Assembly: GCA_944326475.1 (NCBI GenBank)
Contig: CALVEC010000009.1
Span: 1-64,000, forward strand
Direction: 5' to 3'
DNA length: 64,000 nt
From: Candidatus Gastranaerophilales bacterium
GTDB taxonomy: Bacteria > Cyanobacteriota > Vampirovibrionia > Gastranaerophilales > Gastranaerophilaceae
The translations under genes were made by a program, and so were the position numbers. Numbering within the stretch: position 1 is the first letter of the stretch; each line of letters starts with the position of its first letter. The notes beneath the pieces are model-generated. The model did not search any database and was not told the DNA's origin. It saw only the letters and a program-made list of their open reading frames with translations. Below, in pieces: positions 1-1,479 of this stretch.

Positions 1-1479
1 GGTTATACAGTCATCAAAACCGCCCAAGACCTCGACAACATCCGCAATGATTTAGACGGCAAATACATCCTCATGAATGACATCGACCTGTCGTCCTACT
101 CCAATTGGGATCCGATAGGGGATTATGACTCAGGTGCAAGTTTTACGGGCTTGTTGGACGGAAACGGTTATACAATTTCAAACCTGACTATCAACCGACC
201 TGATGAAGATGGCGTCGGATTATTTGTCTTGATAGGAGTTCATACAGATTCTTATGTCGGCAGGGTTCAGAATTTGGGTTTTGAAAATGCGAATATAACG
301 GGAGCTAAAAGCGTTGGTCCGCTGGCAGGATTTAGCGCCGGAACTATCACCAACTGTTACGCTACGGGCAGTATTACCGGAAATAATCAAACCGGCGGAC
401 TTATTGGTGCTATGGGGAATGGTTTAGTTTCTGATTGTTACGCAAAAAGCGATGTTGATGGGTATGAGAAAACAGGCGGGCTTACGGGGATTGTTAACAT
501 GGGAACTGTTACAAACAGTTTTTCAACAGGAGATGTTAACGGCTATAATTACACAGGCGGATTAGTCGGACGTAATCTTTCGGGTACTATATCAAACAGC
601 TATGCAAAAGGTGATGTAGCAGGTGATCAAAATACCGGAGGTTTGATGGGTTGCAGTAGCAGTGGTTCTATATTAAACTGCTATGCAACAGGGGACGTCA
701 GAGGTAATCTTAATACAGGCGGGTTAGCTGGTGAGATTAATGGTGGTAGTTCAACCATATCAAACAGCTATGCACTTGGTCTTGTTCAGGGAGTTACCAA
801 TATTGGGGGATTACTCGGGCAGAATAGTTGGTCTACCATCAAAAACTCTATCTGGAATACCGAAACAACAGGACAAAGCGTTGCAAATGGTTATAGTGAC
901 CATGGAGTTGAAACCAATAATCAAGGTTTAACAACTGCAGAGATGCAAGACCCGAGTAATTGGTCAGGTTGGGATACGAGTGTCTGGGATTTTTCAGAAT
1001 ACCCGCCTAAACTCAAATGGCAGGATGACTTAAAAACACCGATTGACGCTCCTCCGGATCCGAGTCAGCCCGGTGATGAGCCGATTCCGGGTGCAGTTCG
1101 GCTGCAAATCGGCTCTGATTCGAGTTCGACATCTGCAATCTACGTTGACACCTCATTCGACCTCGGCGCGTTCGATGTTGACTTTTCGTCTGCCGACTCC
1201 TGCGCAGCGGCGATTGAGGACATTGACGAGGTATTGTCGCGCATAAACACAAAACGCTCGGAGTTTGGCGCTGTGATTAACCGCTTGTCCTCGATTCTCG
1301 AGTCGCAAACCACGACGATACAGAACTTTACATCGGCAAAATCGACAATCATGGACGCGGATATTGCGAATGAGTCGGCGGATTTTGTGAAGAATCAGAT
1401 TCTCCAGCAGACTTCCTCTGCGCTCCTTGCGCAGTCCCAAAACCTCCACGCGTCGATAGTCTTGTCACTGATAGGGTAG
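1..1479 (+). CDS. Flagellin with GLUG-repeat central domain (5' truncated)
   Basis: The frame is open from base 1, so the flagellin N-terminal D0/D1 part lies outside the window. The last ~90 residues match the flagellin C-terminal D1/D0 helix pair (IDEVLSRINTKRSEFGAVINRL, then MDADIANES..ILQQTSSALLAQSQN), and the LQIGS stretch before it is the usual entry to that domain. The middle is an array of GLUG-type units (GGLxG...NSYAxGDVxG). Unit starts fall at 313, 394, 475, 556, 637 and 718, exactly 81 nt (27 residues) apart, with a last one at 805. GLUG repeats are normally found in large surface adhesins. Here they occupy the surface-exposed variable domain of a filament subunit. Codon use is GC-rich at both ends and AT-richer in the repeats. 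An adhesin alone is unlikely given the clear flagellin C-terminus. Confidence 0.88.
   Translation, partial: GYTVIKTAQDLDNIRNDLDGKYILMNDIDLSSYSNWDPIGDYDSGASFTGLLDGNGYTISNLTINRPDEDGVGLFVLIGVHTDSYVGRVQNLGFENANITGAKSVGPLAGFSAGTITNCYATGSITGNNQTGGLIGAMGNGLVSDCYAKSDVDGYEKTGGLTGIVNMGTVTNSFSTGDVNGYNYTGGLVGRNLSGTISNSYAKGDVAGDQNTGGLMGCSSSGSILNCYATGDVRGNLNTGGLAGEINGGSSTISNSYALGLVQGVTNIGGLLGQNSWSTIKNSIWNTETTGQSVANGYSDHGVETNNQGLTTAEMQDPSNWSGWDTSVWDFSEYPPKLKWQDDLKTPIDAPPDPSQPGDEPIPGAVRLQIGSDSSSTSAIYVDTSFDLGAFDVDFSSADSCAAAIEDIDEVLSRINTKRSEFGAVINRLSSILESQTTTIQNFTSAKSTIMDADIANESADFVKNQILQQTSSALLAQSQNLHASIVLSLIG

Follow-up and report, generated by a model that had tools for sequence, protein, structure and literature searches.

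Homopolymeric tracts as candidate switches in a multi-copy family of giant flagellins from a Candidatus Gastranaerophilales bacterium

Giant flagellins form a multi-copy family in the genome of this Candidatus Gastranaerophilales bacterium, and 13 of them carry a run of 8 to 13 G or C nucleotides at the point where the N-domain meets the variable centre. Six of these tract-bearing genes are in frame and seven are frameshifted only at the tract. As judged from sequence comparison, the decoration of the filament by giant flagellins is very probably subject to phase variation that is driven by slippage and operates gene by gene. With somewhat less assurance, we also consider it probable that the genome (2.1 Mb) holds at least 13 independent slippage switches, so that one flagellar system could display up to 2^13 combinations of flagellin surfaces, and that this arrangement was arrived at twice in the family, by means of coding tracts in one genus and promoter tracts in others.

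The locus from which the analysis started lies at the very beginning of the window, the whole stretch of 64,000 nucleotides under study, and corresponds to the 3' portion of a giant flagellin gene (positions 1 to 1479, + strand; 492 codons and a stop) whose 5' end is lost at the contig edge. ORF analysis identified a single open frame of 492 aa over 1-1479 (+) that extends past the window start. Pfam HMM searches with the GLUG repeat family (PF07581) and the flagellin families (PF00669/PF00700) revealed Glug in five stretches (E 4.7e-22; 77.3 bits against a gathering threshold of 20.5) and Flagellin_C at residues 406-487 (E 8.4e-17). The latter domain, comprising the D0/D1 C-terminal helices (1216 to 1461, +), displays a dN of 0.003 and a dS of 0.45 in comparison with paralogues. 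The C-terminus is thus flagellin, as an earlier note on this DNA had proposed, and the GLUG units are real and share its reading frame; a frameshift between the two, which that note had considered, was not found. Seven GLUG cores (313 to 885, +) start at positions 313, 391, 472, 553, 634, 715, and 802, with spacings of 78, 81, 81, 81, 81, and 87 nt. Of the five consecutive spacings of exactly 81 nt initially described, four are therefore retained, the first being 78 and the last 87; the fifth had been counted because two anchor letters were mixed for the first unit. Compared as DNA, the units share just 26-65% identity, the longest words common to neighbours measure 8-9 nt, and TRF detected no tandem array in the GLUG region, even at score 30. 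Since the units are this divergent and TRF finds none, the periodicity is that of a 27-residue protein fold and not of a DNA repeat array or a slippage substrate, and another proposal of the earlier note, that recombination among the 81-nt units would alter their number, is not supported. The visible part of the gene (1-1479) is devoid of any G or C run of 6 nt or more. The occurrence of GLUG within a flagellin is uncommon, yet it is not the main point of this locus.

AlphaFold2 models were generated for the window protein and for C4_141, a full in-frame paralogue, and Foldseek was used to search for structural matches. In the window protein, the modelling of the fusion, which the earlier note had called for, predicted a beta-solenoid for the GLUG part and long helices for the C-terminal end. 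The surface domain (positions 1 to 1020, +; residues 1-340) resembles a GLUG or M26-stem-like beta-solenoid, with most blocks at pLDDT 82-97 and a low-pLDDT stretch at residues 158-180, and is connected to D1 by a low-complexity Pro/Gly/Asp linker (1021 to 1100, +) mostly below pLDDT 52. In the C4_141 model, N-terminal helices (8-128) and a C-terminal helix (573-666) flank the solenoid, and the glycines encoded by the tract fall within a disordered linker (residues 139-194, pLDDT 22-31). Such a linker would tolerate a varying number of glycines without harm to D1, which fits a switch site. A surface-exposed position of the GLUG units in the flagellin, as previously suggested, is corroborated by the detection of Flagellin_N in all six of the paralogues and relatives scanned that keep their N-terminal end. 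The best Foldseek matches were with the beta-helix of the M26 IgA1 protease (3n6z, E 2.7e-9; also 6xja and 7uvk), so that the suggestion of a protease-like surface is upheld as regards the fold, which corresponds to the stem of that enzyme, but not as regards catalysis: a motif search detected no HExxH zinc site in the window protein or its paralogues. M26 protease or flagellinolysin activity was ruled out by this absence.

The truncation of the window gene is explained by the assembly. The window starts at the first base of contig C9, in a genome of 2.14 Mb and 35 contigs, and the first 77 nt (1 to 77, +) are an exact repeat common to paralogue C4_141, equal in length to the assembler k-mer inferred from other breaks, which accounts for the break at the start of C9. 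Contig C13 contains a flagellin N-domain and ends just 5' of the tract site, its last 77 nt being identical to paralogue C16_52; C34 likewise terminates in a 77-nt paralogue repeat, and the start of C4 and the end of C31 overlap by exactly 77 nt. Breaks of this kind are characteristic of a k-mer assembly graph that meets a multi-copy family, and they are the reason why the genome fragments inside flagellin genes. By elimination, the window gene probably begins on C13. The stretch absent between C13 and C9 corresponds to 148 nt in C4_141, where it includes the tract. Based on its C-domain, centre, 3' flank, and k-mer break, the window gene is assigned to the giant flagellin family, with its own tract site presumably situated in the assembly gap. 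The 3' flank (1480 to 1784, +) is duplicated with paralogues; a 314-nt match to C4_113 (99% identity) begins 9 nt within the gene. The region 1480-2050 is a mosaic of short repeats also found beside several paralogues, including palindromic elements of the CTGAAACAAG / CTTGTTTCAG type, and a promoter and terminator scan 3' of the gene found nothing.

Genome-wide, 23 Flagellin_N, 21 Flagellin_C, and 32 GLUG matches were detected, the flagellin counts taking in FlgL-like and ordinary genes. Once five ordinary flagellins (ca. 300 aa) and two FlgL-like genes are removed, about 16 giant flagellins remain, scattered in the genome. These have near-constant D0/D1 ends and divergent centres, mostly a GLUG beta-solenoid; the centre of C6_103 is a DUF3060 and not GLUG. 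The proteins also match Peptidase_M26_N weakly. Their ends are ca. 92% identical across scattered loci, and among ten close paralogues the N-domains exhibit a mean dN of 0.014 against a dS of 0.35, the C-domains a dN of 0.004 against a dS of 0.50. The constant core retains an LNRLRDLAVQ segment, which we take to be similar to the TLR5 recognition site. None of the five ordinary flagellins carries a tract; four of them (C4:116318, 121485, 128250, and 152718) lie within 37 kb (G000:C4:116318-153128, G000 being this genome). Close to C6_103, an open frame of 7277 aa (G000:C6, ca. 80000-97000; L054) contains several GLUG motifs and encodes a very large surface protein.

With one assembly per species, and homopolymer lengths in short-read assemblies that can err by one base, the tracts were recorded as G11, C11, and so on according to base and length. 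The in-frame genes are C4_141 and C21_25 (G11), C6_103 (G12), C14_52 and C16_6 (C11), and a gene joined from C4_0 and C31 through their 77-nt overlap (G11). The out-of-frame genes are C2_45, C2_83, C4_113, and C16_52 (G12), C7_6 (G13), C14_62 (G8), and C34_1 (G11). Two family members, C6_118 and C12, have no tract. In a set of genes with near-identical tract surroundings, a single G separates the two states, C4_141, C21_25, and C4_0 being in frame with G11 and C2_45 and C16_52 out of frame with G12. In the off-frame genes, the N-terminal frame ends at 165-173 aa and the remainder is open in a second frame: over 1500 nt past the tract, this C-frame contains 0-3 stops (non-zero where the counting window extends beyond the gene's own stop) against 23-50 in the other frames. 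Their C-domains exhibit a dN of 0.003 against a dS of 0.49. Because the C-frame is open and dN is far below dS, the off-frame copies are under purifying selection and are not decaying as pseudogenes.

Long homopolymers of this kind are rare elsewhere in the genome. G or C runs of at least 9 nt occur at 15 sites in 2.14 Mb, 12 of them in the giant flagellin family, for a chance expectation of 0.1. Outside the 12 family tracts, one run is found at C34:6705, and two long G runs occur at G000:C2:121136-121147 and G000:C14:25932-25942. One of these two lies in or just before an ORF adjoining an MBOAT-like acyltransferase gene and the other towards the 3' terminus of a gene that resembles an acyltransferase, these functions being read from sequence; a phase-variable surface modification is possible at both.

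The same kind of coding tract is carried by three congeners (G001, G002, and G003), with one gene in frame (G002:C25, G13) and five out of frame (G003:C8, C7; G003:C1, C11; G001:C11, C9; G001:C41, G8; and G002:C12, C13). G002:C25 and the out-of-frame C4_113 (G12) have a common junction sequence and centres that are 44% identical, and are probable orthologues. The C12 gene of this genome (L046) has CCCCTCCTCCC, an interrupted tract, and reads in frame, apparently locked; its likely counterparts carry C9 (in G001) and C13 (in G002). Together with L091 and L092, it represents a second, more diverged type of giant flagellin, with a coding poly-C in two congeners. Tract length thus differs from one paralogue to another and also in related genes of two species. 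Other genera of the family have a G9-G13 tract ca. 80-120 nt upstream of the N-domain, directly followed by a TAnaaC or TATAAT-like (-10-like) hexamer. Across nine relatives, partly picked because giant flagellins had already been seen there, a run of at least 9 nt was found within 250 nt of 13 of 21 giant or split flagellins, which are thus not a random sample and include a split or short-frame class (<200 aa) that can itself result from the tract, versus 0 of 57 ordinary flagellins (Fisher p 9e-10). The G061 genome has three long runs, each of them next to giant flagellins and one lying on the opposite strand. At G061:C1:122648, a poly-C is found on the gene strand at -166, versus a poly-G at ca. 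-100 in sister genes, and might belong to another start site or to a gene in divergent orientation.

In the proposed switching, replication slippage would shift the length of the tract by one or two bases, so that tract lengths would change within a population. One length class in three would yield a full flagellin; the others would stop after ca. 165-173 aa, and the product, lacking the C-domain, would provide no subunit able to assemble, out-of-frame genes being presumably not expressed. Each giant flagellin gene would thereby toggle on and off independently and reversibly. Provided that the products enter the filament, each cell would build or decorate its own with a particular subset of surface domains, beside the five tract-free ordinary flagellins. 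In the other genera, a promoter-region tract before a -10-like box would instead alter transcription. The benefit may be evasion of secretory antibody or of flagellotropic phages, or altered adhesion.

Several other explanations were weighed against this one. Programmed frameshifting by the ribosome at the G run, or slippage of the polymerase there, would let out-of-frame genes constantly yield some full-length product, with tract length setting the dose rather than an on/off state. Slippage during expression is possible on homopolymers, as has been reported for Buchnera poly(A) (see the discussion in PMC2831843), yet upstream tracts such as those of the other genera cannot work in this manner, and we regard this explanation as unlikely. 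Slightly less credit is given to the idea that the off-frame genes serve as silent donor cassettes or are pseudogenes, in which case gene conversion would be the source of variation and the tracts incidental. The seven frameshifted genes fit such a state, and ends so similar over scattered loci are compatible with conversion; but the homopolymer is the only lesion in each gene, the rest being open and conserved at the protein level (dN far below dS), every copy has its own start codon, and donor cassettes would need neither a poly-C at the equivalent place in other members nor promoter-region tracts elsewhere.

It is very unlikely that the off-by-one lengths are artefacts of sequencing or assembly, all tracts being in frame in the cell. 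The 35-contig genome does break within these genes, and G runs of 11-13 are hard for short reads. However, such errors leave unexplained the near-confinement of long G/C runs to the family (12/15) and the upstream tracts of other genera, and assemblies of other species (e.g., BRZ_BN bin44 and BRZ_CA bin86) show the same mix of states. Least probable of all, and hardly to be expected, is the picture drawn in the earlier note, of one flagellin bearing an adhesive GLUG loop that gains or loses 81-nt units by recombination. The existence of GLUG units in the reading frame of Flagellin_C speaks for it, but these units have 26-65% DNA identity and, between neighbours, common words of at most 9 nt, and TRF detected nothing.

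Flagellar phase variation, in its textbook form, is a two-gene invertase switch. The slippage-driven switching proposed here is comparable to the Salmonella Hin / fliC-fljB system in that the filament surface is switched, reversibly there (PMC11868660) and presumably so here, but it differs in the number of genes (ca. 16 instead of two alternative ones) and in relying on independent switches with no need for a site-specific invertase. Phase variation by simple sequence repeats (SSR) at contingency loci is documented in Campylobacter, Helicobacter, and Neisseria, with surface structures as targets (PMC8355987, PMC5084427, PMC3786947). These loci also have G/C homopolymers in coding sequences or promoters; in the papers found, however, the switched genes linked to the flagellum are glycan-modification or motility genes, whereas those considered here encode the flagellin subunits themselves, in many copies, and belong to a gut bacterium that is related to cyanobacteria but non-photosynthetic. 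The giant flagellins of Bermanella and Oleibacter similarly contain large inserts between the D1 halves (PMC6248924), but with a single giant flagellin per genome, an unrelated insert, and no mention of homopolymer tracts.

Foreign domains in the hypervariable region are also known from flagellinolysins, and a survey of flagellins with inserted domains listed 17 with a 'Peptidase_M26' (PMC5595980). In contrast to flagellinolysins, the proteins described here have only a non-catalytic beta-solenoid stem without HExxH; they have the same fold as the N-terminal beta-helix of M26 IgA1 proteases and, unlike these enzymes, combine the lack of a metallopeptidase motif with flagellin helices on both sides. 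Because of their weak match to Peptidase_M26_N, some of the 17 flagellins of that survey may be of the same solenoid type, and domain insertion itself is therefore not new. There are precedents for phase variation by homopolymers, for giant flagellins, and for flagellins with added domains (PMC8355987, PMC6248924, PMC5595980, PMC11868660). A literature search, with most subscription titles outside its scope, retrieved no case of many flagellin genes each controlled by its own homopolymer, with both a coding and a promoter form in the same family, no paper linking Gastranaerophilales with phase variation, and none linking the GLUG motif with flagellin.

A widespread, almost uncultured gut lineage thus appears to hold more than 12 independently switched flagellins, combining swappable solenoid surfaces with a constant core. 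If this is true, single cells could wear different flagellar coats, and antigenic or phage-receptor variation of the filament would become testable straight from metagenome reads.
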